In this document: in pieces, positions 1,702 to 16,519 of the stretch
Layout: each line of letters starts with the position of its first letter
Position numbering within the stretch: position 1 is the first letter of the stretch
Source: a virus
Virus record (IMG/VR): IMGVR_UViG_3300030105_001516
Span: 1 to 38,994 of that record
Length of the DNA stretch: 38,994 bases
Strand: one strand, 5' to 3'
Made by a program: the position numbers and the translations under genes
The notes under the pieces: model-generated
Databases searched by the model: none
Told to the model about the DNA's origin: nothing
The model's input: only the letters and a program-made list of their open reading frames with translations

Positions 1702-1817
1702 CTAAAGTAGCATACTGCACCCGATGTTATACTCGTGATTCTAATAAACTACATCCGTTTGGTTTTTGTAATGACTGTTGGATTAAGGCTGGAACACCAA
1801 AGGGGATGACAAAATGA
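1698..1817 (+). CDS. 39-residue zinc-ribbon protein
   Basis: The ATG overlaps the upstream stop codon (ATGA) and its own stop overlaps the next start in the same way, so it fits exactly between two genes. The product has two C-x-x-C knuckles, C-T-R-C at residues 7-10 and C-N-D-C at 24-27, spaced like a small zinc ribbon. No further domain is present. Similar mini zinc-binding proteins are common in viruses, but the partner or nucleic acid target cannot be inferred. Confidence 0.7.
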   Translation: MTKVAYCTRCYTRDSNKLHPFGFCNDCWIKAGTPKGMTK

Positions 1818-2008
1818 CTTGGAAAGACATACTAAAGACGCCAAATAGAGCCCACTACACTAAAGATGGTAAAGTTTGGAATGGTAAAACCCATAAGATG
1901 CCTAATGGAAAACTAATGAGTGAAGACCCTCATAGTGAGAAAAGTGTTAGACTCTATCATAAAGAAGAACTACCTAAGCGTAGAAGTGTATTTACCTCCG
2001 GTGATTAA
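1814..2008 (+). CDS. Small basic protein with N-terminal WKDILK tag
   Basis: A 64-residue basic protein beginning M-T-W-K-D-I-L-K, the peptide shared by several proteins in this window. The rest contains H-K-M-P-N-G-K-L-M, a pattern I recall from small uncharacterised phage proteins. It starts with an ATGA overlap and its TAA stop is directly followed by the next ATG. No enzymatic motif is visible. The tag plus high lysine content suggests a packaged virion protein, which is inference. Confidence 0.7.
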   Translation: MTWKDILKTPNRAHYTKDGKVWNGKTHKMPNGKLMSEDPHSEKSVRLYHKEELPKRRSVFTSGD

Positions 2009-2431
2009 ATGTGGTTTGACATTATTAAGAGAACTAAGGCTCAACAGTCTCTCAAGGAATGGAGTGACGAAGATTGGGTAGATATGGGGGGTAAAAAGAA
2101 AGGCCGCTATGCGCCTAAAAAAGTTGCTGAACAATTAACTCCATCTCAAAGAGCCTATGAGAATAAGAAAAAAAGAGCAGGAACTAAGGCAGGTAAGAAA
2201 AATGTCCCAAGAGGAAAGACTGCTAAAAAAGTCTATGAACGGCATGAAGGTGTTGGTAAAGCCTACACTCCCCCTAAAGGTGTCTACACTAAACCTGCAA
2301 AAAGAAAAGAGATAAAAGACAGATTACAGAACAGTAGTAAGTATGGTGGTAAGGGTTGGAATGGTCGCAAGGCACAAGCACTAACCCGTTTATATGAAAA
2401 AGCAGGTGGGGGCTATGTTAATGGAAAGTAG
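2009..2431 (+). CDS. Very basic protein (DUF5872-like C-terminus), variant tag M-W-F-D-I-I-K
   Basis: A 140-residue protein very rich in Lys, Arg and Gly. It begins M-W-F-D-I-I-K, a variant of the W-x-D-I-L-K tag. The C-terminal part, K-Y-G-G-K-G-W-N-G-R-K-A-Q ending in K-A-G-G-G-Y, resembles a small domain I remember as DUF5872, found in many marine phage and some cellular proteins; this is from memory and unsearched. The charge suggests DNA or RNA binding. ATG follows the previous stop with no gap, behind a GGTG ribosome site. Confidence 0.7.
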   Translation: MWFDIIKRTKAQQSLKEWSDEDWVDMGGKKKGRYAPKKVAEQLTPSQRAYENKKKRAGTKAGKKNVPRGKTAKKVYERHEGVGKAYTPPKGVYTKPAKRKEIKDRLQNSSKYGGKGWNGRKAQALTRLYEKAGGGYVNGK

Positions 2432-2807
2432 TTGGCAAGATATTCTTAAAGAATATTATTGGAGAAACCAATATCCTAAAGAAATTCTTTCTACAATTAG
2501 TGATAAAGATTTGACAGAACTGGAATCTAAATATATTCTTCTTCAAGAAACTTACGGACACCCTGCTTGGCTATTGATAGAACCTATGGAGTATGCTATT
2601 GAAGTTGAAAGTAAGACTCCCGAACAGACAATAGAAAAACTACATAGAAAAATTGACAATGAAATGAAAGACGAGCGACGAAGAATTGAACGAGATGTTG
2701 ATGAGGAAATGAGGACTATGCCCGAATTAAAAAATATTTCACAACCTTCTAAAAAATGGGATTCTATTAGAGATAAAATGATTAGAGAAAAATTGGGGGG
2801 AGTATAA
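2415..2807 (+). CDS. Charged helical protein with N-terminal SWQDILK tag
   Basis: An earlier in-frame ATG exists at 2394, but a GGTGGGGG Shine-Dalgarno sequence at 2405-2412 favours ATG 2415 (or 2421). From 2415 the protein is 130 residues and begins M-L-M-E-S-S-W-Q-D-I-L-K. The rest is helical with dense Glu/Arg/Lys and no recognised domain. It overlaps the end of the preceding gene by 17 bases and its stop overlaps the next start (TAATG). The shared tag groups it with its neighbours; function is unknown. Confidence 0.65.
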   Translation: MLMESSWQDILKEYYWRNQYPKEILSTISDKDLTELESKYILLQETYGHPAWLLIEPMEYAIEVESKTPEQTIEKLHRKIDNEMKDERRRIERDVDEEMRTMPELKNISQPSKKWDSIRDKMIREKLGGV

Positions 2808-3109
2808 TGAGTTGGCAAGATATTCTTAAGAAAGACCCTGCATTAGTTAGAGCAGGAGTTTCCGGCTTTAGTAAACCAAAGAGAACACCAAAGCACCCTA
2901 AGAAATCCCATGTCGTTGTTGTCAAAGACGGCAAGAAAACAAAAACTATTCGATTCGGTGAACAAGGTGCAAGTGTAGCCGGTAAGCCAAAAGAAGGTGA
3001 AAGTAAAAAAATGAAAAACAAGCGCAAGTCATTCAAAGCCCGTCACGCAAAGAACATAAAGCGAGGCCCAACAAGTGCCGCATATTGGGCTAACAAAGTA
3101 AAATGGTAA
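2807..3109 (+). CDS. Basic phage protein (DUF6321-like) with N-terminal SWQDILK tag
   Basis: A 100-residue, strongly basic protein starting M-S-W-Q-D-I-L-K-K-D-P. The C-terminal half contains K-R-K-S-F-K-A-R-H-A-K-N-I and ends A-A-Y-W-A-N-K-V-K-W, a conserved pattern I associate with a family in marine phages (DUF6321 from memory). The middle is nearly all Lys/Pro/Val. A GGGGGGAG ribosome site precedes the TAATG start. It probably binds nucleic acid; with the tag, an internal virion protein that contacts packaged DNA is a reasonable inference. Confidence 0.72.
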   Translation: MSWQDILKKDPALVRAGVSGFSKPKRTPKHPKKSHVVVVKDGKKTKTIRFGEQGASVAGKPKEGESKKMKNKRKSFKARHAKNIKRGPTSAAYWANKVKW

Positions 3110-3161
3110 AGGGTAGTATTAAAAAGGCGTGATATTACATTGGAGACAGGGATGAGGTCAT

Positions 3162-4802
3162 ATGTCGGAGAAGCGAAGATTTGGAATAAATAATTTGTTT
3201 AGGCGGTCTACCCCTAAACCGGCTGACCGTAAAGTATTCAACTTAGGTATTCAAGAAAGAGACAATACCGCAATGATGACGGGGCCAATGCTCTACAACA
3301 TCACTCAACAATCTGTAATTGTAAGAACCTGTATCACTCAACTAAAGCAGGAGATATTTAGACGAGGGTATGTTTGGGAAAAAGCATACGAGGCTCGTTG
3401 TAAGTCTTGTCAAAAAACACATAAAATACCTGTTGCCGAATGCGCTCGGTGTGGTTCTCTTGAGTTGGAAAAGCCCGACCCTAAGCAATTAGACTATGCG
3501 GAAAAGTTTGTTGGTGGCTATGTTAATAAATCCGAACAATTGTTTATTGATGTGTTCAAGGAATTAGAAGATGACCTAAACATTATGGATGATGCATATA
3601 TTGTCCTAGTCAAAGAGTATTATTTAGACGGCAATGGTAAAATCCGTATGCACCGAATCAAGGAATTGTTTAGAGGCGACCCTGTTACTATGGCAATATA
3701 CGCTGATGAATTGGGAATTAGAGGGACAAAAGGATTCACATGCATCAACCATAGAAGTTATATTGTTACCGAACCACATGAAAATTGCTCGGAGTGCAAT
3801 AGTCCACTGTTCCCTATTCACTATGTTAATCGTGCCAACGGCGAAGAACAACATTACATCGAAGGAGAGATACTACACTTTAGTAAATATAGTCCTAGTC
3901 GTCTATACGGTCATGCCCCAGTAATGACATTGTTTAATCACATAATGACACTCATTGCTATGGAGAATTACATTAACTCCTCTTATACAAAGAGCCGTAT
4001 GCCTAGAGGTTTGCTAGCAGTCCAAACTAGAAACATGGAATCAATGGCTAGTTTTTGGAGAAGCGTAAAAGAACGCATGGAACAAGACCCCCACTATATC
4101 CCTGTAATGGGTATAGAAGCCGATAATGGAAAAGGTTCTGTTGAATGGATTAAGTTTATGGACAGTCTAAAAGAGATGGAATACACGGCTGTTAAGGATG
4201 ACTTAAGAGATAGAATTTCAGCATTCTATGGAGTTAGTAAAGTCTTCATGGCTGACAATACTACTAGTGGTGGGTTGAACAATGAAGGTATGCAAATACT
4301 TGTCACTAATCGTGCAGTTCAAATGGCACAGAATGTCTACAATAATTATGTGTTCCCGTTCTTAGTTAAGCAATTTGGTATTACAGATTGGGTATTGAAA
4401 CTCCCTCCATCCGAAGAAGAGGATGAGATTGCAGGACTTCGTAAAAGAGAATTAGAAGTTAGTATTGCGGCGGCAGTAAAGAATCTAGGATTTGAAGTAG
4501 AGATGGATGAAGACGGTCAATTTACTTTTAACAAGCCGGAGCCTGTAGAACAACCCCCTCAAGAAGAAGAAGTAAAAGCGGATAGTGGGTCTAATGCATT
4601 AGCCGGTTCTAATCTAGACCAAAGAGATTTAGATGAGAACATGCGACAAATGGCAGAGGGTGGCTCTACACCACAAGAAAATCCTGCAACCACAAGGAAT
4701 AAACCATCATTGAGCGTAGGGCCGGATAAGCGCATGACAGGATTACCAGCCGACGCAGGTAATCAAAATGTGGATAAAAGAACTGAAAGGAGAATACCAT
4801 AA
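3162..4802 (+). CDS. Portal protein with two inserted zinc-binding motifs
   Basis: A 546-residue protein downstream of TerL with a portal-like layout: an early region starting near Q-Q-S-V-I-V-R-T-C, a core including E-I-L-H-F-S-K-Y-S-P and later D-R-I-S-A-F-Y-G-V-S-K-V-F-M, and a disordered Pro/Gln/Glu-rich tail after about residue 455. The portal forms the dodecameric DNA channel at one capsid vertex. Two unusual inserts are visible: C80-x2-C83 with C94-x2-C97, and C194-x2-H197 with C209-x2-C212, each able to hold zinc. The start has a GAGGT site 4 bases upstream of ATG. The stop overlaps the next gene (TAATG). The assignment rests on position, size and core motifs. Confidence 0.82.
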   Translation: MSEKRRFGINNLFRRSTPKPADRKVFNLGIQERDNTAMMTGPMLYNITQQSVIVRTCITQLKQEIFRRGYVWEKAYEARCKSCQKTHKIPVAECARCGSLELEKPDPKQLDYAEKFVGGYVNKSEQLFIDVFKELEDDLNIMDDAYIVLVKEYYLDGNGKIRMHRIKELFRGDPVTMAIYADELGIRGTKGFTCINHRSYIVTEPHENCSECNSPLFPIHYVNRANGEEQHYIEGEILHFSKYSPSRLYGHAPVMTLFNHIMTLIAMENYINSSYTKSRMPRGLLAVQTRNMESMASFWRSVKERMEQDPHYIPVMGIEADNGKGSVEWIKFMDSLKEMEYTAVKDDLRDRISAFYGVSKVFMADNTTSGGLNNEGMQILVTNRAVQMAQNVYNNYVFPFLVKQFGITDWVLKLPPSEEEDEIAGLRKRELEVSIAAAVKNLGFEVEMDEDGQFTFNKPEPVEQPPQEEEVKADSGSNALAGSNLDQRDLDENMRQMAEGGSTPQENPATTRNKPSLSVGPDKRMTGLPADAGNQNVDKRTERRIP

Positions 4803-5026
4803 TGACAGAAGATACCGCACAGAAAGAAAGAAGACTAACAAAGGAACTAGCAGATGTTCGTTCTAAAAGAGACGCCGAAGATAGAACTACTAAAATTAGT
4901 AGAGACTATTCCGTAGGCGGAACTCCACCGGACACTAGCCATAGGCCAACGAGAGGTTCAGCCGACACTCCCGATGTTGTCCAACTCCCTACTAAGAAGC
5001 GAAGAAAGACGGAAAATAAGTGGTGA
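4802..5026 (+). CDS. Small charged protein, unknown function
   Basis: A 74-residue hydrophilic protein with a helical, charged first half and a basic end (K-K-R-R-K near the C-terminus). There is no hydrophobic core and no recognised domain, so it may be disordered or bound to a partner. It is coupled to the portal gene by a TAATG overlap and to the following gene by a GTGA overlap. Co-transcription with portal suggests a head-assembly accessory role; that is only context. Confidence 0.6.
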   Translation: MTEDTAQKERRLTKELADVRSKRDAEDRTTKISRDYSVGGTPPDTSHRPTRGSADTPDVVQLPTKKRRKTENKW

Positions 5027-7116
5027 TTCGTTTGAATATCCGCAAAGTAAATTTACCTACTGCAACCCCACAAAGGTTTGCCTATGCGGAAAAAGACAAG
5101 AAATATGAACCCCTACAAGAAATAGTTTCTAACACGACAATCAACGAGAAAGCCGAATTTATAAAATACTTGAGTGGACTATTAACTAAAATGAAATCTG
5201 TAACTATTGCGGGTTTGAAATATGCATGGGATGAAGAGAGTGAGAAGGTAATACCGCCATCCAAAAACCCAAGGAACACCACTGATAAAAAAGGTAGAAA
5301 GAAAAGTATTGCATACATTGATTATTTTACAGAAGAGATGGGCCTTAGCACTGATAGTAAATTGGTAAACGGTATTCAAACATCGTCATCTAAAGAAAAA
5401 TATAACAATTCAATAGAAGCAATAGGTGATATGGAATCCAATATTACAACCACTAACCGTCAAATTACCGACTTAGAAGGTGAGGAAGAAATTCCCAATA
5501 CAGAAGATGAGGAATGGAAAAGTCTTGAAACGGTAAAAAAAGAACTTATTATTTCAATGAAAAAACTAATAACGGAACATAATAAAATGCTACCGGCACT
5601 TATTAAAGAATCAAAGGAACAGTTTGCGCTGAATTTAGAAGAACAAAAAACATCAATCGTTGATGAGGAACCCACCCGTAAGAAAAATACTGAAATGGAT
5701 AGGGAGATTAAAACCTTAAAAGACAAAATTAAGCGTTCAAAAGAAGGTGGAGATGCTTGGAATAAACATAAAGAAGCCTTACTAAACTTACAAAGAAAGC
5801 GAAAATATCGAGGCGAAACAACATTCGAGAAACCAAAACTACCGGATAAGGAATTTGAAGAAGGTCAAAAGGGCAGAACCATAGGTAGTTATCTTTATCC
5901 AAACATGGACACAATAAAAGATAGTGAAGGTAAAGAAGTAAAGCAAATAAAAGACAAGGTTCTTCGTGATGACATAAACAAAATATTACTGTCAATGATG
6001 AAAACCATGAAATATAGTGCTTCACTTACACAACTACACAACTACTTAAATGAAGAATCACACTCCAAGTTAGACGAAAGCACTCCCGAAAACAAGAACA
6101 CTAGTAATCCAAATGATAGAGATAGAGCATTTGCTCAAGTTCATAGATTCATAGAAGAAATAAAAAGAGAGGCTACTACAAAAACACAGACAACGAAAAT
6201 AAATAAATTAGCAACTCTCTTAGATATATCGGAAAGTGCAGTGGCACTAGCCGATAAAGAACGACCTAAAGTAACAGGTTCAACTCTATCCAACAGTAAG
6301 AAACTGCTCGCCCGCCTAAAAAGATATGAAGCCGATTTTATAAAACAAGGGAGAACTACCAAAGTTAGAAACCTATTAGGCGATACTAAAAAAGAAATGA
6401 ATAATACTATTGGTTTCCTAATGGCTGTGTCGAAAAACGCACAAGAAATCCTAAAGTTTGATTTAGTGGGGTCTAAGCGAGAAGAGACAATCACATATAA
6501 ACAAGTCTCTGCCAAAATGAAAGGAGTATATTTAAGCGAAGAAGACCAAAAGATGTCTAACGCTACTAAATATACTTCTGCATTTATTGGATATGATGAG
6601 TTACTAAGCAACGGTGTTGCTATAAATAAAATACTAAACATGGAATATGATAATGTGGTTACTTCGGCTCAAATACATAGAATTGAAGCCATAAAAGAGG
6701 TTGATGACAGACTAAAAGAATTAGAAGAGTTGGGCGACCGTAGCCATCCAAGTGACAAAAATGATTTACTAGAAGACATAGACCAACTAAGCCAATACAA
6801 GACCACACTACTAATGTGGATTATTGAAGATGGTAAGACACAAGGTAGCCTAACAATATTAACAGGTGCGGAGGAACAAAGGTTCCGTTCAAAACTAGGC
6901 TCTATGAAACAATATATTAGAGATGCACATACGAAAGAAAGGAAAGTTCGTGATAAGGATAGCAAACCACCTATTGCACAACCAGCAGGGCCAACCCCCA
7001 AAGAAATGAGAACAAAAACATTTCAAACAAGAGTAGATAGAGAAGAAACTAACTTAACGGTTAAAGAACAAGAAGAACGATACCAAAACAAACACAAGGA
7101 AAGGGAAGAAAAATGA
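5023..7116 (+). CDS. Large charged coiled-coil protein, unknown (possible inner virion protein)
   Basis: About 697 residues, extremely rich in Lys and Glu, with long stretches predicted by eye as helical coiled coil, for example around residues 115-260 and 560-650. No catalytic motif or membrane segment is seen. Two in-frame GTG codons start the gene, at 5020 and 5023; the second is chosen because it overlaps the upstream stop as GTGA. The stop overlaps the next ATG (ATGA). The place between portal and capsid protease suggests an internal head or core protein, but the sequence itself does not show this. Confidence 0.65.
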   Translation: MIRLNIRKVNLPTATPQRFAYAEKDKKYEPLQEIVSNTTINEKAEFIKYLSGLLTKMKSVTIAGLKYAWDEESEKVIPPSKNPRNTTDKKGRKKSIAYIDYFTEEMGLSTDSKLVNGIQTSSSKEKYNNSIEAIGDMESNITTTNRQITDLEGEEEIPNTEDEEWKSLETVKKELIISMKKLITEHNKMLPALIKESKEQFALNLEEQKTSIVDEEPTRKKNTEMDREIKTLKDKIKRSKEGGDAWNKHKEALLNLQRKRKYRGETTFEKPKLPDKEFEEGQKGRTIGSYLYPNMDTIKDSEGKEVKQIKDKVLRDDINKILLSMMKTMKYSASLTQLHNYLNEESHSKLDESTPENKNTSNPNDRDRAFAQVHRFIEEIKREATTKTQTTKINKLATLLDISESAVALADKERPKVTGSTLSNSKKLLARLKRYEADFIKQGRTTKVRNLLGDTKKEMNNTIGFLMAVSKNAQEILKFDLVGSKREETITYKQVSAKMKGVYLSEEDQKMSNATKYTSAFIGYDELLSNGVAINKILNMEYDNVVTSAQIHRIEAIKEVDDRLKELEELGDRSHPSDKNDLLEDIDQLSQYKTTLLMWIIEDGKTQGSLTILTGAEEQRFRSKLGSMKQYIRDAHTKERKVRDKDSKPPIAQPAGPTPKEMRTKTFQTRVDREETNLTVKEQEERYQNKHKEREEK

Positions 7117-7466
7117 CTTGGGAACACATACTGAAAGGTGAAAAAATAGAAAAAGAATTCAGTCCGATACTAGAAGGACTAGAAACCAAAAAGAAAAAGT
7201 CTTTGAAAAAGACTCTTCAATCAGCAGAGCCAACTGAATACTTTGGACAAGACTTTACCCGAATGGGTGAACTGATTGACTTGCTAAGAGACTTAGATTT
7301 GGTTAAGTCCGATGACAAACTAAAAAAGAAGTTTGTAACTATTGACGAGAGGAACATTGATATGGTTGCGTTGTCGAGCAAACTTCGTAAGGAGTATGAG
7401 TTGTTGTATAGAGATTTACGACAAATTGTATATCCAAAGAGAAAGGGGGATTTGAGAGATGAGTGA
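7113..7466 (+). CDS. 117-residue protein with N-terminal TWEHILK tag
   Basis: It begins M-T-W-E-H-I-L-K-G-E-K, a member of the shared tag set. The rest is a basic/acidic helical protein with no known motif. The start overlaps the previous stop (ATGA), and its end overlaps the next gene by 8 bases. No function is evident beyond the tag. Confidence 0.65.
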   Translation: MTWEHILKGEKIEKEFSPILEGLETKKKKSLKKTLQSAEPTEYFGQDFTRMGELIDLLRDLDLVKSDDKLKKKFVTIDERNIDMVALSSKLRKEYELLYRDLRQIVYPKRKGDLRDE

Positions 7467-7686
7467 AAACAACGAAGACATGCTAATAATTTTGAAAGAA
7501 CTAGTGACTCGAATTAAAGAGTTAGAAAGTGCAGTTTACAACAAGGACAATCTATTGATGAAGTCCGGTTTTGTTGTTGTTGATTCACCTACACCCTCAA
7601 TGAACAATAGCCAAGTTCCCAACACTGATGCAATTAGTAAAATGAGTTGGAATGAGATTGAGCGATTCGTTAATGGAGGACAATAA
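7459..7686 (+). CDS. 75-residue protein with C-terminal SWNEIER tag
   Basis: Residues about 5-30 form an acidic coiled-coil helix, followed by a flexible Pro/Ser/Asn-rich linker. The last 14 residues, M-S-W-N-E-I-E-R-F-V-N-G-G-Q, closely resemble the C-terminal end of the protease-scaffold protein (M-S-W-S-D-I-H-K-A-V-G-G-N-I). The coiled coil plus linker plus terminal peptide is an adaptor-like layout. It overlaps both coding neighbours in a tight operon. Confidence 0.65.
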   Translation: MSENNEDMLIILKELVTRIKELESAVYNKDNLLMKSGFVVVDSPTPSMNNSQVPNTDAISKMSWNEIERFVNGGQ

Positions 7687-7687
7687 T

Positions 7688-8155
7688 ATGCCCGAAAAGA
7701 TGACAAAGAGAGAAGCAGAAATTAGCCGAGCAATTAGATTAGTCCGTAAAGCAAAGGAAACTATCAAACTAGTGGGTAATTCTAACGAAATACCATACGA
7801 TAGTGAAGGTGAAGAAGTTAAGGTCAAGCGACCAAAAGCCGTAAAAGATGATAAAATTAAAAACAAGACTCAAAAGAAAGAAGGCTATGGTCTTGCAGGT
7901 GAAGTTATTGGTAAAAGATATAACAGAGGCCACATTACCGATGAAAATAAACGAAACATAACAACCTCTATGAGAGGCGGAGTGTTTACTGGAACAATTG
8001 ATAAAATACTTGACGATACTATTAAAGAAATTATGAATTTAGTGAGAGACTCAAATGCCGATAGTGGGAGCATAGAGGCTGTTCTTGATGAAACAGTAGA
8101 ACGCTTTCAAGCAATACAAGACCAATTGACTGATTATGAATACAACCCTCAATGA
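7688..8155 (+). CDS. Charged helical protein, unknown function
   Basis: A frame is open from 7652, but a clear GGAGGA Shine-Dalgarno sequence at 7675-7680 places the start at ATG 7688, giving 155 residues. The N-terminal 60 residues are Lys/Arg-rich, the middle has Gly-rich basic turns, and the last 60 residues are acidic and helical. No domain is recognised. It lies just before the DNA ligase gene. Confidence 0.6.
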   Translation: MPEKMTKREAEISRAIRLVRKAKETIKLVGNSNEIPYDSEGEEVKVKRPKAVKDDKIKNKTQKKEGYGLAGEVIGKRYNRGHITDENKRNITTSMRGGVFTGTIDKILDDTIKEIMNLVRDSNADSGSIEAVLDETVERFQAIQDQLTDYEYNPQ

Positions 8156-8161
8156 TGCGGT

Positions 8162-10678
8162 ATGGCAACTACTGGCTTAATGTTTGAGAAAGACAAAGCA
8201 CCCATCTCAAATGAAATTCTATCTCTCTTTGAAAAGGTGCGAGTAGCATACTTATCATCAAGAGCCGACCCTAGCGAATATGGTGGCCGGTGGAGAAACG
8301 CCATAGAAGAAGTCAAAGAAGCATACAATTCTATCTCACCTTTAGGTAGAGAAATAAAAGAATACCTAGATGAACGCCATGTCGAGGCTACGGATGCTGG
8401 CAGTCCTTCAAGTGGTTCGGCAAAAATAATCTATGAAGGTATTAAGCAAATGCGGTTTGATTCGGATAATGTCAATGACCCCTTCTCTAAGAAATTCAAA
8501 GGTAAAGTATTGGAGAGCCTTTTGACAGATGAAAGCGTCTTTGTAAAGTTTATTCATTATGCGATTCGTTCCGATGATGACGCCCTATCCGAAGACTGCT
8601 ATGAAAGTATTGAGTTTCAAGCCGACGATATTACAGATGGTTTAGAAGGATTAGACCTACAAGTAAAGGATGTTCCGTTGTTCATCATAGAACATTATGG
8701 TGATGATAAGGACAGCAAAAAGGTTGAGTCTAATTTCAAAAAGGCACTAAAACTATTAGAAGCCGCATTCATGCATAAGTATTCCGAAGAAGAATGGAAT
8801 ACTTTACTACAAGTAGAATTGAAAAAGGCTGAAAAGAAGTCCACAGACGAAAAAGCAATATCGCACTTTATTGTTCCTAACAAACCAATGTATAGAATCT
8901 TCGATATAGACGACATGAAAGAACTACAAGGTTTTTCCGGCGACTATATAGTTCAAGAAAAATATGACGGTATGAGAATACAAATCCATAAAATAGATAA
9001 CCAAGTTAAAGTCTATTCTTATAATGAAAAAGACATTACAGATAAATGTCCTAATCAAGTTGCTGAAATGGAAAAGAAATCCTACGGTGATTGCATTTTA
9101 GATGCCGAGTTAATTCTTTTCGATGGTGATGAACCCCTCCATAGAGCCGACACTATTTCACATGTGTTCAAAAACCAATACCCCGATGCTAAATTAAAAG
9201 CACATGTCTTTGATATTATGAGACACGAAGATAAGAACATGACCGATGAGGAATTAGAACAAAGAATAAACATACTCTTCAATAACTATTCCGCCAAGTC
9301 ATCCGAATACTTAGAATTCCCTTCTAAGAAAGATACTCGAACAGCCGACTCTCTAAAAGACATTGAAGAATATGCTAAAGAGATAATGGAGATGCCAACA
9401 GCAGAAGGAGTTGTCATAAAAGACATTACCTCTACATACTTCATAGGCACTAAGAAAAACCCTAAGTGGATTAAATGGAAGAAGTTTGTTGATTTGGATA
9501 TGATAGTCCTAGATAAGAAGTCTACAAAATCAAAACTATATTCATACACATTAGGTGCTGGGCCAGTATTAGAAAAAGGAAAACACATTGTTGAATTAGA
9601 TGGTAAACTATACATGAATGTTGGAAAGGCACTCAATACTAAAACTAATGTAAACATTGGAGACATTATTAGAGTTAAGGTAGATGAAGTAAAACAGTCC
9701 GATGAACGCTTTACTCTTTACTCCGCTAATGTTATTGAAGTTCCCGAAGTAGAGTCACCGGATAAAGTAGTCACTTTGGAAATGTTATCTAAAGACACTA
9801 AGAAATCCTTGAAGTATAAAGTAGAGGCACTAACTAAGGGCATTACAATCACAGATAACATACATGGTTCGGCTACACTAATTGCTAAAAGCATGGATGG
9901 GTTTACTATCTATGGCTTTGAAGAAAGCAACCTAATGTCTAAGAATGCATTGGCTGACTTAGACCAATGGAAAGAAGAAGCCGAAATGACTTTGAAAACT
10001 CTACAAGGAACTATGACTACTGCAATAAAAAATAGACTTAAGTTTAAGGGGTCACAGACTCCTAAAGAGATGCATGAGTATTTACTAGCGGCAATGCCTA
10101 GTGAATATGAAACACTTTTCGATAGTGATGCTTCTAAGATGATGAAGATTTTAGGACATGCTTCTACTAAAGACTTAAAGAATTGGGCTAATCAAAGAGA
10201 AGGTATTAGTTTTAGAGATGGGGAATTACATGTAGACCCTACAGATATTGCTAAGGAAATGTCTCAATTTAAAATATATTCAAGGAAAGACGACAATTTA
10301 GATTTTATTATTAGTCATAAAGGTGAAACACTTTCTTGGCTTATTGACTTACCTAACGATGATGACATATTTTCTTTGTTTGGTAAAGCCAATAAATACC
10401 CTGCTCAAGTATCTAAGAATATTGCTAGAGGGCAACTAATAGATGAAGGAGATGTTGAATTAGGGGTTCAAAGACATGGCTATCACGAATACATCCTTAA
10501 AGGAAACAAGTTTGAAACTAAAATGCACTTTAGAGTCATACCTGTTAAAGAAGAAAAAATGTGGTTAGCATGGACTGGCTATGAACAAAAACCTGTAGAT
10601 AAAAAGAGTGATGACGGAATATGGAATATCTACACTGACAAGTATAAAGACTTAGTTTTACCCGATAGTGGGGAATAG
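8162..10678 (+). CDS. ATP-dependent DNA ligase with long C-terminal extension
   Basis: An 838-residue protein. The nucleotidyltransferase core has motif I K-Y-D-G-M-R with K267 as the lysine adenylated by ATP, motif III D314-A-E, motif IV E415-G-V-V-I-K, and motif V K435-W-I-K-W-K. These seal nicks via an AMP-DNA intermediate. Residues 1-245 are a helical N-terminal region that may be a divergent DNA-binding domain. An OB-fold-like part follows to about 525. The remaining 300 residues exceed the usual ligase length; around 713-726 the pattern L-D-F-I-I-S-H-K-G-E-T-L-S-W resembles the LigD phosphoesterase core, with most catalytic positions changed. A replication/repair enzyme inside the head gene cluster is unusual. 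Ligase identity is firm; the extension call is tentative. Confidence 0.9.
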   Translation: MATTGLMFEKDKAPISNEILSLFEKVRVAYLSSRADPSEYGGRWRNAIEEVKEAYNSISPLGREIKEYLDERHVEATDAGSPSSGSAKIIYEGIKQMRFDSDNVNDPFSKKFKGKVLESLLTDESVFVKFIHYAIRSDDDALSEDCYESIEFQADDITDGLEGLDLQVKDVPLFIIEHYGDDKDSKKVESNFKKALKLLEAAFMHKYSEEEWNTLLQVELKKAEKKSTDEKAISHFIVPNKPMYRIFDIDDMKELQGFSGDYIVQEKYDGMRIQIHKIDNQVKVYSYNEKDITDKCPNQVAEMEKKSYGDCILDAELILFDGDEPLHRADTISHVFKNQYPDAKLKAHVFDIMRHEDKNMTDEELEQRINILFNNYSAKSSEYLEFPSKKDTRTADSLKDIEEYAKEIMEMPTAEGVVIKDITSTYFIGTKKNPKWIKWKKFVDLDMIVLDKKSTKSKLYSYTLGAGPVLEKGKHIVELDGKLYMNVGKALNTKTNVNIGDIIRVKVDEVKQSDERFTLYSANVIEVPEVESPDKVVTLEMLSKDTKKSLKYKVEALTKGITITDNIHGSATLIAKSMDGFTIYGFEESNLMSKNALADLDQWKEEAEMTLKTLQGTMTTAIKNRLKFKGSQTPKEMHEYLLAAMPSEYETLFDSDASKMMKILGHASTKDLKNWANQREGISFRDGELHVDPTDIAKEMSQFKIYSRKDDNLDFIISHKGETLSWLIDLPNDDDIFSLFGKANKYPAQVSKNIARGQLIDEGDVELGVQRHGYHEYILKGNKFETKMHFRVIPVKEEKMWLAWTGYEQKPVDKKSDDGIWNIYTDKYKDLVLPDSGE

Positions 10679-10699
10679 GTTATATAGTCGGTTTATAAC
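10679..10699 (+). promoter_or_regulatory. Candidate TATA-like promoter for the capsid operon
   Basis: Right after the ligase stop lies GTTATATAG, then a matching TATAAC, forming a 6-bp inverted repeat (10679-10684 with 10694-10699). The TTATATAG stretch is centred about 25 bases before TTG 10708 and 34 before ATG 10717. In archaea a TATA box lies about 25 bases before the transcript start, so a short-leader or leaderless mRNA for protease/scaffold and capsid genes is plausible. The inverted repeat could instead be only a weak hairpin. Confidence 0.35.
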
Positions 10700-10716
10700 A
10701 AAAGAGATTGAGCAGT

Positions 10717-11895
10717 ATGTTACAGACCATACTTGCAGACAAGGAGACTGACTTCACCATCATCAAAGCCAAAAGCGATGAATTGATGATTGGTGGGTAT
10801 GCTTCTATTGAAATGGTGGACAAACAAAACGACCTTATCACACTCAAAGCATTAAATGAAGCAGTAGTAAAATTCATGGAGAAGAACAAGTTTAGAAATG
10901 TAATGACAAACCATTCTAATGTTCAAGTCGGAGAAGTAATACAATCATACAGAGATACAAGTGGCAAACTATGGAAAACAGAAGTAGATGATGTCGGATT
11001 TTTTGTAGTAATAAAATTAAGAGATGACATCGAAAAGGCAAAAGAAATAAATAGAGGAATTCGCAAAGGGACATTAAGAAGTTTTAGCATTGGAGGACAA
11101 GCGTTACAAAAAGTAAAGAAACATCATGTAGAATTAGGCGAGTATAGTGAAATTAGTAAACTCGAACTACATGAAGTAACAATATGCGAAAAAGGAATTA
11201 ACCCCGAAGCGAGATTTGACATATTAAAGGAGGACAAAAACATGAATAAATTAGAAAAAGCATTAGCGGAACTTGACACTCTACTTGAGGAAGTCAATAC
11301 CCTACGAAAAGAAGAAGAACCACTAGAGGAATTAGAAGCGGCAGAGCCACATCCCCTAGATGAGAAGATGGAAACAGAAGAAGAAGAAGAAGAGTCTATG
11401 GAATACATGGATGACGAAACTAAATCTACTACTGTGGATGGCAACGACGATGAAAACCTCGGCGGCGCAGGAGAACTGATGGAACAAGCAGGACTTCAAG
11501 CAAAGAAAGAAGGTATGGTTTCAAAGGCATGGGGCAACGACGAGTTTAACACTCTTAACCTAAGTGCTGAGAACATCGAAAAAGCCTACTCGCAATTCCG
11601 AGCAGAGCAACTTGAAAAGTTGGCTTATGATAACCTCTCGCAAGACTTTTCTAAGAGATTCACTGCCGAAACCAAGAACAGAGTTTCAATGGTTGCTAAG
11701 TCGGAATACGACGCACAAACTGAAATCAACGCACTTACTAGTGAATTTGCAGAACTTCGCAAGTCACTTACAGCAGAAAAAAACACAATCCGTAAGGCTA
11801 CAGAAGCCGCTACTACGACACACAGTTTCTCTACAGAAGAGATTGCTGAAATGTCATGGAGCGATATTCATAAAGCAGTCGGCGGTAATATTTGA
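10717..11895 (+). CDS. Prohead protease fused to scaffold
   Basis: Residues 1-170 match the capsid maturation (prohead) protease fold: N-H66-S-N-V-Q-V-G-E carries the likely catalytic His and R-S-F-S124-I-G-G the likely nucleophile Ser, followed by L-H-E-V-T-I-C-E. Residues 176-392 are a scaffold: helical, with a very acidic Glu-rich block, then charged helices. The last residues M-S-W-S-D-I-H-K-A-V-G-G-N-I carry the shared tag. The start is ATG 10717; a TTG at 10708 is also in frame. A strong internal ribosome site at 11228-11233 could express the scaffold alone from 11242. The stop is fused to the ribosome site of the major capsid gene. The protease cleaves scaffold and capsid N-termini during maturation. 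Confidence 0.85.
   Translation: MLQTILADKETDFTIIKAKSDELMIGGYASIEMVDKQNDLITLKALNEAVVKFMEKNKFRNVMTNHSNVQVGEVIQSYRDTSGKLWKTEVDDVGFFVVIKLRDDIEKAKEINRGIRKGTLRSFSIGGQALQKVKKHHVELGEYSEISKLELHEVTICEKGINPEARFDILKEDKNMNKLEKALAELDTLLEEVNTLRKEEEPLEELEAAEPHPLDEKMETEEEEEESMEYMDDETKSTTVDGNDDENLGGAGELMEQAGLQAKKEGMVSKAWGNDEFNTLNLSAENIEKAYSQFRAEQLEKLAYDNLSQDFSKRFTAETKNRVSMVAKSEYDAQTEINALTSEFAELRKSLTAEKNTIRKATEAATTTHSFSTEEIAEMSWSDIHKAVGGNI
11242..11895 (+). CDS. Nested in-frame scaffold protein (internal start)
   Basis: Within the protease-scaffold gene, AAAGGAGG at about 11226-11233 lies 8 bases before ATG 11242, which is in the same frame. Translation from there gives a 217-residue scaffold lacking the protease domain, as lambda Nu3 lies inside gene C. 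This ribosome site is among the strongest in the window, more so than that of the parent gene. The product would keep the acidic block and the C-terminal W tag. Expression is inferred from sequence only. Confidence 0.6.
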   Translation: MNKLEKALAELDTLLEEVNTLRKEEEPLEELEAAEPHPLDEKMETEEEEEESMEYMDDETKSTTVDGNDDENLGGAGELMEQAGLQAKKEGMVSKAWGNDEFNTLNLSAENIEKAYSQFRAEQLEKLAYDNLSQDFSKRFTAETKNRVSMVAKSEYDAQTEINALTSEFAELRKSLTAEKNTIRKATEAATTTHSFSTEEIAEMSWSDIHKAVGGNI

Positions 11896-11905
11896 GGTGA
11901 ATTAA

Positions 11906-13252
11906 ATGGGATATATTAACACGATTAGAGACTTAGAAGCGGCAACATACGGATTACCTGCATTTGGAGGTAATGCCATGTTGAAACAAGCAGGAACAAT
12001 TGCAGGTCTACATACTGCACACGATATTGGAGATGCGGTGGCAAACGGCACAACTAATGCTGGTTCAACAGCAATGTATAACCAACTATACGGACAGAAG
12101 GTTTGGTCTATGCTAAACCGAGAAGTAAATGCTCTCGCAATGCTAGCAAAGCGACCTTATACTTCATCCGGTTGGAGAATTTTAAAGAGCCGACCCTTCG
12201 GTGGTTCCGGTGCTAAACTCGCAGTGGATATTACTGGTGACGGTTCATCCGATAACGGACTAGGTGGCGCAAACCCACACGCTGATGAAATTGGTGGCGT
12301 TCCTGAAAATGCTGGACTTTCTACTGCGGCTGATGGACTTGGTTCAATGGCTCCAACATACGCTCAACTCTTTATGAGTCCTAAGACTATTGCACATCAG
12401 TTCGATATTTCCGAACTTGCTATGGAAATGGCTCAAATTGATGATGGACTCGGAGATATTCGGTCTATTATTCGTGAAGACATGGGTAAGGCACACGCTG
12501 AATCACAAAACAAGATGCTTCTTATGCCTCTTGCAGTTTATGGTGAAGTTTCGGCTCTAGCAAACATTGAGAGAAACTATACTTCTCTTAACAAGGTTCT
12601 TAGTAGCCGAGCAGAACTTCTTGCGGCTGATAATGGAGTTCTTATGACCGATACTATGACTGGTGTTGGAGTTAATCTCGCTAAAATTTACGGTGGAGAA
12701 CGATATACTGAGGCATCTTTCCTTGATGCAGAAGTAGACTTTAACGCTTCATATGCGGCTTCTTCTGTTCGACCACTAACACTTACTTTGCTTAACGCTA
12801 TGATTCGTAATTTGCGAATTGCTGGTGGCGCACCTAAGTGTATTCTTACAGGCTATGATACAATCCAAGCAATCGCTGACTTGTTACAAAGCCAAGAAAG
12901 ATTCATGGATAGAAAGGAAATTATTCCTACACATAACGGTGTTCGTGGAATTAAGGGTGCAGAAGTTGGTTTCCGAGTGGCAACCTACTACGACATCCCT
13001 CTAATCCCTTGTAAGGATATGACTGCAACTGCTAACGCATCCGATACCACTGCAATTAGTGACTTGTTGTTCCTAGATACAGACCACCTATGGCTTTCGG
13101 TTCTTAAGCCGACTCAATACTTTGAAGATGGTGTTTCTAATGGAAACCCATTCGGTGTTGGTCGTCTCGGAAACCAAGCACTTTACCGAACCATTGGTGA
13201 AGTAGGTTGTTCTTTCTTCCAAGGTCAAGGTAAAATTACTAATGTGGCGTGA
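11906..13252 (+). CDS. Major capsid protein (HK97 fold)
   Basis: A 448-residue protein immediately after the protease-scaffold gene, as is standard. Features fitting an HK97-type capsid protein are a helical N-terminal arm, a central region with F-D-I-S-E-L-A-M-E-M and a long spine-helix candidate (D-I-R-S-I-I-R-E-D-M-G-K), and a late A-domain-like segment with P-K-C-I-L-T-G-Y-D-T and D-T-D-H-L-W-L-S-V-L. It assembles the icosahedral shell. Translation uses TGAGGTG, with the stop codon of the scaffold gene inside the ribosome site. Codons are less A-rich than in neighbouring genes, as expected of an abundant protein. Confidence 0.88.
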   Translation: MGYINTIRDLEAATYGLPAFGGNAMLKQAGTIAGLHTAHDIGDAVANGTTNAGSTAMYNQLYGQKVWSMLNREVNALAMLAKRPYTSSGWRILKSRPFGGSGAKLAVDITGDGSSDNGLGGANPHADEIGGVPENAGLSTAADGLGSMAPTYAQLFMSPKTIAHQFDISELAMEMAQIDDGLGDIRSIIREDMGKAHAESQNKMLLMPLAVYGEVSALANIERNYTSLNKVLSSRAELLAADNGVLMTDTMTGVGVNLAKIYGGERYTEASFLDAEVDFNASYAASSVRPLTLTLLNAMIRNLRIAGGAPKCILTGYDTIQAIADLLQSQERFMDRKEIIPTHNGVRGIKGAEVGFRVATYYDIPLIPCKDMTATANASDTTAISDLLFLDTDHLWLSVLKPTQYFEDGVSNGNPFGVGRLGNQALYRTIGEVGCSFFQGQGKITNVA

Positions 13253-13263
13253 GGTGTTTTAGT

Positions 13264-13875
13264 ATGACACATACTATTACATTGGTCGCAGACCATAAGG
13301 GACTTACTCGCCCATCTGTTATGGGTGACGAATATACCGTTATTGGTGACATGGCTACTACGGACTACCGTATTGGCTCACCCGCTAATGCTTCCGTAAA
13401 TATCAATGCGGCAACAGACGAAACTTTGACTAGAGCAAGTGGTTCATACATTACTGATGGATTCGTTGTTGGAGATTACTGCACTATTGTTGGTTCAGCG
13501 TCGGCTAATGATGCTCACTTGATTCAAATTAAGACATTGACTGCTACTGTTTTAACAACAGAAGCCGACACTGCTTTAGGTGCTAATACTGGTGGCGGAG
13601 AAGTTATTACTCATGCAGGTGAAAAAATCCTCGCTAGTGACTTTGGATTGGCTACTATGACACATCTAGAAATTCTAGGTGGAGATAATATGAGACAACG
13701 CTATCAATTGAGTAACTTGCGGGACAACGGAAAACACTGTTACCTCTACGCATTTAATACCAATGCCGACAATAACAGCACTCTTCTAGGTGCTTCTCTT
13801 GTTGGTGCGGCCAATGCTAATGCGGGTGACACCCCTCTAGGCACTGTCCGACTACGAGCATTTGGTAACATTTGA
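13264..13875 (+). CDS. Minor capsid or decoration protein
   Basis: A 203-residue Ala/Thr/Gly-rich, probably all-beta protein directly after the major capsid gene. The frame opens at a GTG at 13249, but GAGGTG followed by ATG 13264 defines the start. No catalytic motif is seen. Position and composition fit a capsid decoration or stabilising protein; a head-completion role is the alternative. Confidence 0.6.
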   Translation: MTHTITLVADHKGLTRPSVMGDEYTVIGDMATTDYRIGSPANASVNINAATDETLTRASGSYITDGFVVGDYCTIVGSASANDAHLIQIKTLTATVLTTEADTALGANTGGGEVITHAGEKILASDFGLATMTHLEILGGDNMRQRYQLSNLRDNGKHCYLYAFNTNADNNSTLLGASLVGAANANAGDTPLGTVRLRAFGNI

Positions 13876-13887
13876 GGTGTTTACTTG
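13873..13887 (+). promoter_or_regulatory. TGAGGTG stop/Shine-Dalgarno fusion deciding a TTG start
   Basis: The TGA stop of the upstream gene forms the first bases of TGAGGTG, and the only start codon at the right distance is TTG 13885. The same element occurs at 11893, 13250, 14671, 15079 and 26163, always 12-14 bases before the next start, which supports the TTG call here. Confidence 0.7.
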
Positions 13888-14319
13888 GCAACCATACGAC
13901 TAAAAGATTCGTATATAGCCGGTAATAGATACGAGCCAACCCATCTACTAATTATTAACGGTAGTGAAGGTCGGGTTAAAGTTACTACGGCGGAGGCATT
14001 AGAAATCTCTGCCGTAGTAGCCTCTCGCTATTACTTGGGTAAACATTTAGATGTTGTTTTTACAGAAAGTGATAGAGAGGATTTACTCTCTCTACCCGAA
14101 AGAGAAGCGGCAATTCTAACCAATCTACTTAAATGCCCTGTTGAAGAAATACCGTCTAGACTACTTCCTAAAAAACTAGTAGTCAAGGCAAGTGTTCCCG
14201 AACTTCTAAAGGCTACTGCTAAGAAGGCGACCAAGAGAGTTACGCCTAAGAAGTCCACGCCTAAAAAGACCACTCCGAAGAAGGAAACGCCTAAAGAGTC
14301 CGTTTTAGAAGAAGAGTAA
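13885..14319 (+). CDS. Head protein with histone H1-like lysine/proline tail
   Basis: A 144-residue protein starting at TTG behind TGAGGTG. Residues 1-95 look like a compact alpha/beta domain. Residues about 110-140 are a flexible basic tail with repeated T-P-K-K units and close variants (T-P-K-K, S-T-P-K-K, T-T-P-K-K, E-T-P-K-E), like the DNA-binding tails of linker histones and some bacterial nucleoid proteins. It may contact packaged DNA or another virion protein. No family is recognised. It lies in the minor capsid gene group. Confidence 0.62.
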   Translation: MATIRLKDSYIAGNRYEPTHLLIINGSEGRVKVTTAEALEISAVVASRYYLGKHLDVVFTESDREDLLSLPEREAAILTNLLKCPVEEIPSRLLPKKLVVKASVPELLKATAKKATKRVTPKKSTPKKTTPKKETPKESVLEEE

Positions 14320-14373
14320 TTGCACAACCTTCATTAAGAAGTTGCCATTACCCTTGTTTACAAAGGTGTTTAC

Positions 14374-14673
14374 ATGGCAGATACAAGCAGAAGCAGTGGA
14401 GTATTAGGGGCTAGCGCAATAATTTCAAGAAATCAGTGTAGGGTTAAAAGCATGCACGCTTCTTTCGTTATTGTTAGTAATGCGGCAGTAACCATCAAAC
14501 TATTCGATAGTCTTGACAATAGCGGGACAGAAATTGCTAGAATGCACCATAGCACTACAGGCCAATACAATATTGAGTTTGACATGCATGGTGTTCTTGC
14601 TACTACGGCTTTATTCTTAGAAGTTACAGAAGCAAGTTCCTCTACAGTAAATGTTTCTGTAGAGTTTAATTGA
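14374..14673 (+). CDS. Small beta-sandwich virion protein, unknown
   Basis: A 99-residue Ser/Thr-rich protein with alternating hydrophobic strands (A-S-F-V-I-V-S-N-A-A-V-T-I-K-L-F-D, ending V-N-V-S-V-E-F-N), typical of a single jelly-roll or Ig-like fold. It starts after AAGGTG. The 54-base gap before it is larger than most here but holds no clear promoter. A decoration or fibre-like role is possible from position. Confidence 0.58.
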   Translation: MADTSRSSGVLGASAIISRNQCRVKSMHASFVIVSNAAVTIKLFDSLDNSGTEIARMHHSTTGQYNIEFDMHGVLATTALFLEVTEASSSTVNVSVEFN

Positions 14674-14682
14674 GGTGTTCTA

Positions 14683-15081
14683 ATGCCCGCACTTAACCAC
14701 GATACTAGGCTCATAATGACAATACTTTTTGTCGGGACTATTAGCGGTGCTAATGTTTTCGCATACGCTACCTTTGGTTTGAATTTTCCTTACACGGTTT
14801 TAATGCATGGTGTTCTATTCGGTTTAATTACTGTTGGTGCAATCATGGTTATGAAGGCACTATTTGACCTAGCCTTAAACGATAAAATTGAAATGTATTT
14901 ACTCGATAGGCGCATCACTTCATACTGGCAAAGAATTGCTAAGGATGAACAACAACGAAAGAAGATGCAAGAGTCACTTAAAGTATTCCAAACAGATAAT
15001 CAAACAAGTAGAGTTCCCCAAATCGCCCCTGCTTACGAGACAGATGGTGTAAGTGCCGACTTTTTAGCAACACTTCAATGA
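14683..15081 (+). CDS. Membrane protein with two transmembrane helices
   Basis: A 132-residue protein with hydrophobic segments at about residues 10-31 and 38-63, followed by a charged 69-residue hydrophilic tail with a helical Lys/Gln-rich stretch. No holin signature can be confirmed. It is translated from a TGAGGTG junction and is the first of three consecutive genes for membrane-associated proteins, leading to the GTPase, so the three may act together at the host membrane. Confidence 0.65.
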   Translation: MPALNHDTRLIMTILFVGTISGANVFAYATFGLNFPYTVLMHGVLFGLITVGAIMVMKALFDLALNDKIEMYLLDRRITSYWQRIAKDEQQRKKMQESLKVFQTDNQTSRVPQIAPAYETDGVSADFLATLQ

Positions 15082-15090
15082 GGTGGCTAA

Positions 15091-15318
15091 ATGGTATTAG
15101 GCGACATAATGGGTTTTTCGGACTCGGACTACGCCTATAATCAAAGCAGGGCGCACTCGGCTGATATTTTCTTTATGAGAATGAGAGCGTGGTTTTGGGG
15201 CGGTTGTATTTCATTGTCTTGTTTACTTATTGGTAATATGATGGGTGTTTTTGACATCAACATCATGGGTTGGCTAGTAGGTAAAGCATCGGAACTTTGG
15301 AATTGGGCGTGGCATTGA
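15091..15318 (+). CDS. Small single-span membrane protein
   Basis: A 75-residue protein with a hydrophilic N-terminal 33 residues, a probable transmembrane helix at about 34-53 (W-F-W-G-G-C-I-S-L then L-L-I-G-N-M-M) and a Trp-rich amphipathic end. It starts behind TGAGGTG. The next gene, the GTPase, begins 3 bases after its stop. It may be a membrane partner of the GTPase; this is inference from adjacency. Confidence 0.6.
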   Translation: MVLGDIMGFSDSDYAYNQSRAHSADIFFMRMRAWFWGGCISLSCLLIGNMMGVFDINIMGWLVGKASELWNWAWH

Positions 15319-15320
15319 AA

Positions 15321-15983
15321 ATGTCTGTTCTAGCGGGGTTCGCTGTTGTAGTCATTGAAGCAACAGTAGCGTTTTACAAAAGAATACATGCAATTAACTT
15401 CGGCATCTATGGTGCTACAATGGTGGGTAAAACCACACTACATCATCAGTTAAGAACAAAGGGTGAAGTCCCCGAAATAAAACAAAGAACTGTTGGCAAA
15501 GAAAGAGCCACTAGAAAAGTAATAAAAGTAGATGGTAGCACTCATACTTTAAGAACCGCAGATATTGGCGGAGAGGCTATCTATTGGAAAGAGTGGGCTA
15601 ATGACATTCGTTCAAGACATGTTAAATATATAATATTTGTAATAGACCATAGGCATTTAGATTCACCTGCTAATTTAGACCATCAGTTAGCATGGAAATA
15701 TTTAGTAGATATTATCTGTAGTGATAAGTGGGTCGGCGGAAAGAAAAAGAAGAACGGTGAATATCCTTTAGCGGTAGGTATTTGGGCTAATAAGTATGAT
15801 ATTTGGGGAGATAAATACCCCGACGACGCCCCTATTGAACAACACCCTATTTATGAACCGTTCAAATACGGTATGCAAAGACTAAATGATAAAGGAATAC
15901 CAACTTTCAAATACATAGTGTCGGCTAAATCTCAACCGGAAATGGTCTATAGAGGCGTAATGACGATGATTAAGGAGTATTGA
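15321..15983 (+). CDS. Membrane-anchored small GTPase (Ras/Arf-like G domain)
   Basis: From ATG 15321 the protein is 220 residues; TTG 15297 and 15315 are less likely starts. Residues 3-19 are a hydrophobic anchor. The P-loop is G31-A-T-M-V-G-K37-T. A D-I-G-G box matches G3 (D-x-x-G), N-K-Y-D matches G4 (guanine specificity) and V-S-A-K matches G5. This set defines a P-loop GTPase of the Ras/Arf/SRPRB type. The protein is in the middle of the virion gene cluster, between capsid and connector genes. What it controls is unknown; membrane recruitment or remodelling is a reasonable inference from the anchor and membrane neighbours. Confidence 0.82.
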   Translation: MSVLAGFAVVVIEATVAFYKRIHAINFGIYGATMVGKTTLHHQLRTKGEVPEIKQRTVGKERATRKVIKVDGSTHTLRTADIGGEAIYWKEWANDIRSRHVKYIIFVIDHRHLDSPANLDHQLAWKYLVDIICSDKWVGGKKKKNGEYPLAVGIWANKYDIWGDKYPDDAPIEQHPIYEPFKYGMQRLNDKGIPTFKYIVSAKSQPEMVYRGVMTMIKEY

Positions 15984-15985
15984 TT

Positions 15986-16519
15986 ATGTGGAAAGATATT
16001 CTTAAGGTTGATGAGTTCACTAATGAAGGTAACTCCAAAGGCCACTACGATAGTGAGTTTGATAAAATAAAAATAAACCTTGATAAGTTTTCTTCTCGCT
16101 CTGAATTATTCGATGATACTGATAGAATTAAAGAGTTTGCTACAGTAGTGGCGCATGAAAATGCACATAAAGAATATGACAAAATCATAGGGACTGAAAT
16201 GCGAAAGGCTCTCGATGATGTATTAGAAGAAACAAAAAAATACAGCAAAATACCTCATGGTAATTTTGAAGAAAGAAGAAACAAAATAAAAACCATTAAA
16301 CCCCTGCTTTATGGCTATCTCAACTATGCAATTGTCAATGAGAAATTTGCCTTTACCACTGGTGGCCCCGATATGACGGCAGGTTCTATGAGGTCAGTAT
16401 TGAATCAAATAAGTAAAAAAATAAATACCATTCTAAACGGTAAGAAAGATACATATATTTCTAAACTACAACGGGAAATATATGAGGAAGTAATTAAGAC
16501 CACTAAAAAAGAGGAATGA
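15986..16519 (+). CDS. Zincin-like metallopeptidase with N-terminal WKDILK tag
   Basis: AAGGAG at 15972-15977 places the start at ATG 15986 rather than TTG 15980, giving 177 residues beginning M-W-K-D-I-L-K. The motif V-A-H57-E58-N-A-H61 is an HExxH zinc-peptidase signature, and N-E119-K-F-A-F supplies a likely third ligand, as in gluzincins. The C-terminal 45 residues are charged and helical. A packaged protease that acts on a host or virion protein is suggested by the tag. Peptidase activity is predicted, not shown; the motif could be degenerate. Confidence 0.65.
   Translation: MWKDILKVDEFTNEGNSKGHYDSEFDKIKINLDKFSSRSELFDDTDRIKEFATVVAHENAHKEYDKIIGTEMRKALDDVLEETKKYSKIPHGNFEERRNKIKTIKPLLYGYLNYAIVNEKFAFTTGGPDMTAGSMRSVLNQISKKINTILNGKKDTYISKLQREIYEEVIKTTKKEE

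Follow-up and report, generated by a model that had tools for sequence, protein, structure and literature searches.

A short terminal peptide shared by many unrelated proteins of magrovirus-like viruses as a candidate capsid-targeting signal

The DNA analyzed in this study is IMG/VR record IMGVR_UViG_3300030105_001516 (positions 1 to 38,994; hereafter, the window), a 39-kb fragment of a magrovirus-like tailed virus. Six of its proteins begin with nearly the same short peptide, hereafter the tag, and two others carry a similar motif near their C-terminus. An earlier note, made from the sequence alone, had proposed that the peptide loads cargo into the virion. The genes concerned are listed below, together with that of the major capsid protein (MCP).

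1814..2008, + strand: 64-residue protein with the N-terminal tag MTWKDILK (1814-1837); no Pfam or PHROG match
2009..2431, + strand: 140-residue basic protein with the N-terminal tag MWFDIIK (2009-2029)
2421..2807, + strand: protein of approximately 130 residues with the tag SWQDILK in 2421-2450; start at 2415 or 2421
2807..3109, + strand: 100-residue basic phrog_7595 protein with the N-terminal tag MSWQDILK (2807-2830)
7113..7466, + strand: 117-residue protein with the N-terminal tag MTWEHILK (7113-7136)
7459..7686, + strand: 75-residue coiled-coil-like protein with the C-terminal scaffold-class motif MSWNEIERFVNGGQ (7642-7683)
10708/10717..11895, + strand: S78 prohead protease with scaffold-like region, PF04586 above the cut-off at residues 24-180; directly upstream of the MCP gene
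11906..13252, + strand: MCP, HK97/SU10-like and akin to that of haloviruses HVTV-1/HCTV; the presumed receptor shell
15986..16519, + strand: 177-residue protein, zincin-like HExxH, with the N-terminal tag MWKDILK (15986-16006)

All six N-terminal tags that the note had assigned to the genes at 1814, 2009, 2415, 2807, 7113, and 15986 were present. For the gene at 2415, only the position needed correction, as its product starts MESSWQDILK, with W at residue 5-7 and not at residue 2-3; the orthologue in one relative (L002:384) begins MSWQEILKK. Both C-terminal motifs were found as well, KMSWNEIERFVNGGQ in the protein at 7459 and EMSWSDIHKAVGGNI in that at 10717 (MSW at 11851). The note had referred to the latter as the scaffold; it joins an S78 prohead protease (PF04586) and a scaffold-like region in one polypeptide. 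In the protein at 2009, phrog_14910 (from residue 9) and phrog_17747 (from residue 90) match the body and exclude the tag, and the HExxH of the protein at 15986 is HENAH in the window and HELSH in relatives. The terminal tag was absent from the tail-region genes of the window (17-38 kb), the portal, and the MCP. The MCP segment WLSVLK was considered as a tag and rejected, as it belongs to the ordinary interior of the capsid protein sequence.

The frequency of the peptide was determined in 80 relatives gathered via the MCP and in eleven long records (72-185 kb). To keep the tag from joining families, both protein ends were masked before clustering, and 708 families resulted at a BLAST cut-off of E 1e-4. 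The motif counted was W-x-x-[IV]-[ILMV]-[KR]. Of these families, 126 had it at the N-terminus, 7 at the very C-terminus, and 17 internally, and when one member was drawn per family, the counts were approximately 119, 5, and 8, respectively. The internal motif rate predicts 0.9 N-terminal and 0.7 C-terminal families, while shuffling of whole proteins yields approximately 4 motif families in all. With 119-126 of the 708 families against 0.9 expected, the peptide lies at protein ends rather than inside proteins, and internal scatter is refuted. The logo of the 126 families reads M-[S,N,T or nothing]-W-[K,E,Q,F]-[D,N]-I-[L,I]-K, and x-D frequently comes next. The N-terminal form can be written M-[S/T/N/-]-W-x-[D/N/E]-[I/V]-[L/I/V]-K, in which the W, I, and K positions are strongly constrained. 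No similarity was detectable among the bodies of the 126 tagged families, which refutes homology over the full length.

The tag recurs in the related viruses, and it does so in late or head-strand gene clusters, as the note had supposed. By calling of open reading frames (ORFs), the eleven long records hold 8 to 26 tagged genes each, the count of 26 coming from a 185-kb record that resembles two joined genomes. In record G012 (184,733 bp, IMGVR_UViG_3300021958_000021), there are two divergent capsid genes, and repeats lie about 91 kb apart; the record probably represents two related viruses joined by misassembly. When counted as a DNA pattern, the tag gave approximately 10-27 matches per long record versus 0-3 for reversed-pattern controls, and 0-2 in HVTV-1 and five bacteriophages. 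The HVTV-1 genome itself had no match to the DNA pattern, and the head-cluster proteins of this virus that were read had the tag at neither end. The tagged genes are strongly biased to the MCP strand (158 versus 1 on the opposite strand), compared with 631 versus 735 for untagged ORFs. Tagged blocks lie mostly 8-30 kb upstream of the MCP gene and also directly downstream of it. When IMG/VR was scanned for the tag, 30 of the 40 records tested had a homologous MCP with 52-72% identity; of the others, several were fragments that contained the same arrays of tagged genes, and the rest were single unrelated matches. In a scan of genome contigs, the sole matches were two magrovirus contigs, L259 and L260 (NZMJ01000101.1 and NZMJ01000024.1). 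They lie within a GTDB metagenome-assembled genome labeled Maricaulis sp., probably through a binning error.

Every synonymous codon occurs for the I, L, and K of the tag; thus, selection acts on the peptide. The tag is also modular, with the protein at 2807 as the clearest graft. Its body is 64-70% identical to roseophage and cyanophage proteins, which start MPSKKDPRL or MAPKKDA, whereas the window copy starts MSWQDILKKDPAL. Therefore, the tag takes the place of the phage N-terminus. In one relative, eight tandem genes have a common 31-residue leader (tag plus ITQSRVKEIEDIDIDIDDDDC). The leader is 83% identical, against 22% for the bodies, and synonymous differences occur in 41% of codon pairs at identical leader residues. 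The leader stays constant as the bodies diverge. Tandem arrays with clade-specific leaders of about 30 residues were also seen at L349:7083-11890, L350:5416-9360, L351:818-6600, and L291:5444-9578; the leaders end in an acidic stretch, often with Cys, and the bodies diverge fast. About one tagged protein per genome consists of an unrelated middle and a conserved C-terminal module, [EK]xAGxV[TS][ST]...LF...GGKRKRKKKDE, the smallest (64 residues) being the tag plus the module. These proteins are at G001:1247, G002:74756, G003:10071, G004:57356, G007:12800, G008:55077, G011:87760, and G012:1907 and 95411. Judged from its sequence, the module is possibly a second packaging or cleavage signal.

As the note had claimed, scaffold-like proteins have a matching end. 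Every complete copy of the protease-scaffold seen contains W-x-[D,E]-[I,L,V] at its C-terminal end, typically AEMDWSDIHKMVGG. The 7459 family (75-85 residues) of the head cluster, which is unrelated to the protease-scaffold, ends nearly alike (MDWSDIHKMVEKVGGQ), and its 36 members keep W-x-[DE]-[IM] in all except a minor group with W replaced by F. The C-terminal motif common to both proteins is M[SDE]Wx[DE]IHK, and its W-x-[DE]-[IL] core is kept in both at 52-54% MCP identity to the window. The claim that the scaffold carries the same peptide as the cargo holds in part: the core W-x-[D,E]-I is common to the cargo tag, the protease-scaffold end, and the 7459-family end, but the I-L-K end of the tag is not.

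For most tagged bodies, no known family was found, and PADLOC and NCBIfam scans of 122 tagged proteins gave weak, scattered matches only. The recognizable bodies include basic phrog_7595/DUF5754 proteins, HExxH peptidase-like proteins (15986 in the window), and one pentapeptide-repeat protein, while EF-hand-like tagged proteins fell below the cut-off. Five to seven further families have the motif at their last residues, including GNAT acetyltransferases (families 296 and 404; PF00583 at 28.7 bits in L103 and 21.8 in L119 versus a cut-off of 20.7). The AlphaFold2 (AF2) model of family 96 (L266), a possible ADP-ribosyltransferase (ART), had a pLDDT of 79, and its eight top matches in a second look were all of the ART fold, with weak Z values of at most 4.8. 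Tagged family 384 (L108:1165-1719, L046, and L028) has the motif KPxGLWYS...W...DGIE...GWDxDSGCxW and distant homologues in actinophages (Microbacterium and Mycobacterium phages). It is possibly an ADP-ribosyltransferase, with an AF2 model too poor to use (pLDDT 45). PDB profile searches with families 96 and 384 gave nothing significant. By analogy, the tagged enzymes and basic proteins resemble those that phages carry in their heads and eject.

The peptide is, accordingly, a short, terminal, and modular motif at the protein level, present on many unrelated late-strand proteins of magrovirus-like viruses. Since it is found on many unrelated proteins per virus, with a similar end on the scaffold, it is probably an address label. 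From its sequence and by analogy, we consider it a capsid-targeting (cargo-loading) signal with a probability of roughly 0.7. A helix N-capping box would be formed by S/T/N/D/G just before W and D/N/E two residues after it, and the moment of the tag matches an amphipathic helix. Because of its fit to a capping box, the tag is read as a short amphipathic helix, which would expose W and I one turn apart. The C-terminal copy on the scaffold would bind the inside of the shell during its assembly, and cargo with a copy at either end would be co-assembled inside the prohead through the same contact. After maturation by the S78 protease, the cargo would remain in the head, be ejected with the DNA, and act on the host at once, in parallel with T4 internal proteins and Alt. 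Loading, receptor, cleavage, and ejection are thus steps that we infer. We lean, somewhat less firmly, to a fuller version, in which one short helical address code, copied from the shell-binding end of the scaffold and usable at the N- or C-terminus of any protein, would load 10-26 proteins per head, so that the injected arsenal could be read from sequence.

Other explanations of a shared terminal peptide have to be weighed against capsid targeting. The most serious, although still doubtful, keeps the cargo in the head and places the docking site on the scaffold core or the protease instead of the MCP, the scaffold C-terminus then being a scaffold-scaffold contact. The T4 capsid-targeting sequence (CTS) indeed draws proteins into the scaffolding core, where internal proteins co-purify with gp22 (PMC9026906, PMC3012670), and the motif also ends the small protein at 7459, a potential core component. 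However, the same core on two unrelated scaffold-side proteins and on cargo is explained more simply by one separate common receptor. It is unlikely that the tag directs proteins away from the head interior, to the tail, a virus factory, the host membrane, or the ribosome. A short amphipathic helix can bind many partners, and some divergent relatives have few tags near head genes though 10-19 genome-wide. Yet the prohead protease-scaffold ends in a matching motif, the portal, the MCP, and the tail region of the window lack terminal tags, and the cargo folds are like those of injected effectors rather than structural parts. Less probable still is a motif that the prohead protease recognizes or is activated by, which would mark proteins for trimming and not for loading. 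The motif ends the protease polypeptide itself, and prohead proteases cut terminal propeptides, T4 Alt being cut at both ends (PMC9026906). Against this, the motif stands at the distal end of the scaffold region and not at the catalytic domain, and W, I, and K are highly constrained with no scissile position evident. A hybrid, in which proteins are loaded and then cut, is possible.

Two further explanations are very improbable. A nucleic-acid element that encodes the peptide incidentally, for example one that enhances translation or provides homology for recombination, would suit the location at gene starts and the frequent tandem arrangement of tagged genes. It was rejected because of the codon diversity, and the motif also occurs at C-termini. 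The least probable explanation is that the tag is a remnant of gene duplication. True paralogues with the tag plus about 30 residues in common do make up some tandem arrays, but the bodies of most tagged proteins are not detectably related, and thus residual homology is excluded for them. Moreover, the tagged folds are unrelated (GNAT, pentapeptide repeat), and the 2807 protein is a bacteriophage protein with the tag added.

Several observations also weigh against a capsid-targeting signal itself. The family counts depend on the BLAST cut-off and on a crude gene caller, while the effect size does not. Among orthologues of the 7113 protein in other clades, the tag is interrupted in 26 of 38. 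The N-terminal class (W-x-D-I-L-K) and the scaffold class (W-x-D-I-H-K followed by GG) are similar and not identical, and a receptor common to both classes is therefore a guess. No convincing conserved cleavage site was recognized directly after the tag; when the C-terminal module and the leaders of the tandem arrays were examined as cleavage sites, they were suggestive and gave no consensus. A Foldseek search with family 96 returned no significant match. In three genomes, family 225 has the motif between two domains, at about residue 40-45; thus, a free end is not always required. Tag-like peptides were also seen inside apparent two-module fusions at L021:83-598, G003:86019, G005:47100, and L028:1420, the internal copy in L021 being without its W (TKEDILKRKPKSG).

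Among known systems, phage T4 is the closest parallel. The first ten residues of T4 internal protein (IP) III suffice for packaging, with residues 4 and 7 carrying the targeting and the other parts of the internal proteins free to vary (PMC9026906; PMC3012670). T4 IPI-III start MKTYQEFIAEA or MKTFKEFT, with an aromatic and a hydrophobic residue three apart. In both systems, a short N-terminal peptide precedes otherwise unrelated, small, and often basic proteins, the cargo is diversified, and the head is built with a prohead protease and a scaffold (here, Peptidase_S78 above the cut-off at 10708-11895). Similarly, the aromatic and hydrophobic residues stand three apart after a T/S-type cap (MKTYQEFIAEA versus MTWKDILKxD), these being Y/F and F in T4 and W and I/V here; this is a resemblance only. 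The magrovirus tag differs in that it belongs to an archaeal-virus clade with a halovirus-type capsid, is present on approximately 10-26 genes per genome, and is also used at the C-terminus, with the protease-scaffold ending in a like motif. Homology of the two peptides is not demonstrable, as they are too short to decide, and packaging and cleavage of the magrovirus proteins are predicted from sequence. T4 Alt is an ADP-ribosyltransferase that is carried in the head and ejected (PMC9026906, PMC5512222). Alt and the polyvalent effectors are head-borne enzymes (ADP-ribosyltransferase, peptidase, and others) ejected with the DNA (PMC5512222), and the tagged bodies likewise include GNAT, HExxH, pentapeptide repeats, and a possible ADP-ribosyltransferase fold. 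Polyvalent effectors, however, are mostly large and multidomain with no one common tag, whereas the magrovirus proteins are many, small, and single-domain and have the tag in common. The Dar proteins of phage P1 are also internal head proteins ejected with the DNA, DarA binding the inner face of the hexon; in the text read, no short tag common to many unrelated proteins is reported (PMC12810830). The gene content of the window and its relatives agrees with that of published magroviruses (PMC10160649; PMC12999244), whose genomes are 90-110 kb long with PolB, an ATP-dependent DNA ligase, and an S78 protease (PMC10160649) and which are known from metagenomes alone (PMC12999244).

The window MCP matches that of HCTV-1/HVTV-1 over its full length (25%, E 1e-20, tblastn), such kinship with tailed haloviruses (Druskaviridae) being one trait of the order Magrovirales. 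Encapsulin cargo-loading peptides and the C-terminal coat-binding domain of the P22 scaffold are further examples of short terminal peptides or helices that bind inside an HK97-fold shell and can be attached to any cargo; unlike the magrovirus tag, encapsulin peptides are C-terminal and non-viral. The window has the ATP-dependent DNA ligase in its head cluster and the S78 protease (Pfam). PolB was present in all 7 long relatives tested (88-96 kb); the 39-kb window fragment itself is without it. PolB profile matches are split over two ORFs about 0.6-1.3 kb apart in G001, G005, G007, and G011 (the records behind L015, L041, L052, and L078), which may reflect a split polymerase or an intervening sequence, and fall in a single ORF in G040 and G055. 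The window ligase (8162-10678) lies inside the head cluster, has long flanking regions, and in the relatives seen ends in a conserved [DE]G[IL]W[DN]IxxDKY-like sequence; it may itself be a virion protein. The ORF at 334-1701, right behind the C-terminal piece of a probable terminase, has a LAGLIDADG-like stretch (AAFIDSDGYI) and no Pfam match over the cut-off, and is possibly an intein or a homing endonuclease.

The motif was unmentioned in the open literature searched. To our knowledge, it would be the first capsid-targeting signal recognized in archaeal viruses, with a fixed leader preceding rapidly diverging cargo in tandem arrays. The hosts of magroviruses, Poseidoniales, are among the most abundant archaea in the surface waters of the ocean. 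Should the tag indeed be a loading signal, it would offer a transferable peptide that brings cargo into a virus-like shell, and the proteins delivered to the host on entry could be listed from genomes alone. Moreover, about a tenth of magrovirus genes would gain their first functional assignment, and T4-like packing of diverse effector proteins would extend to archaeal viruses.

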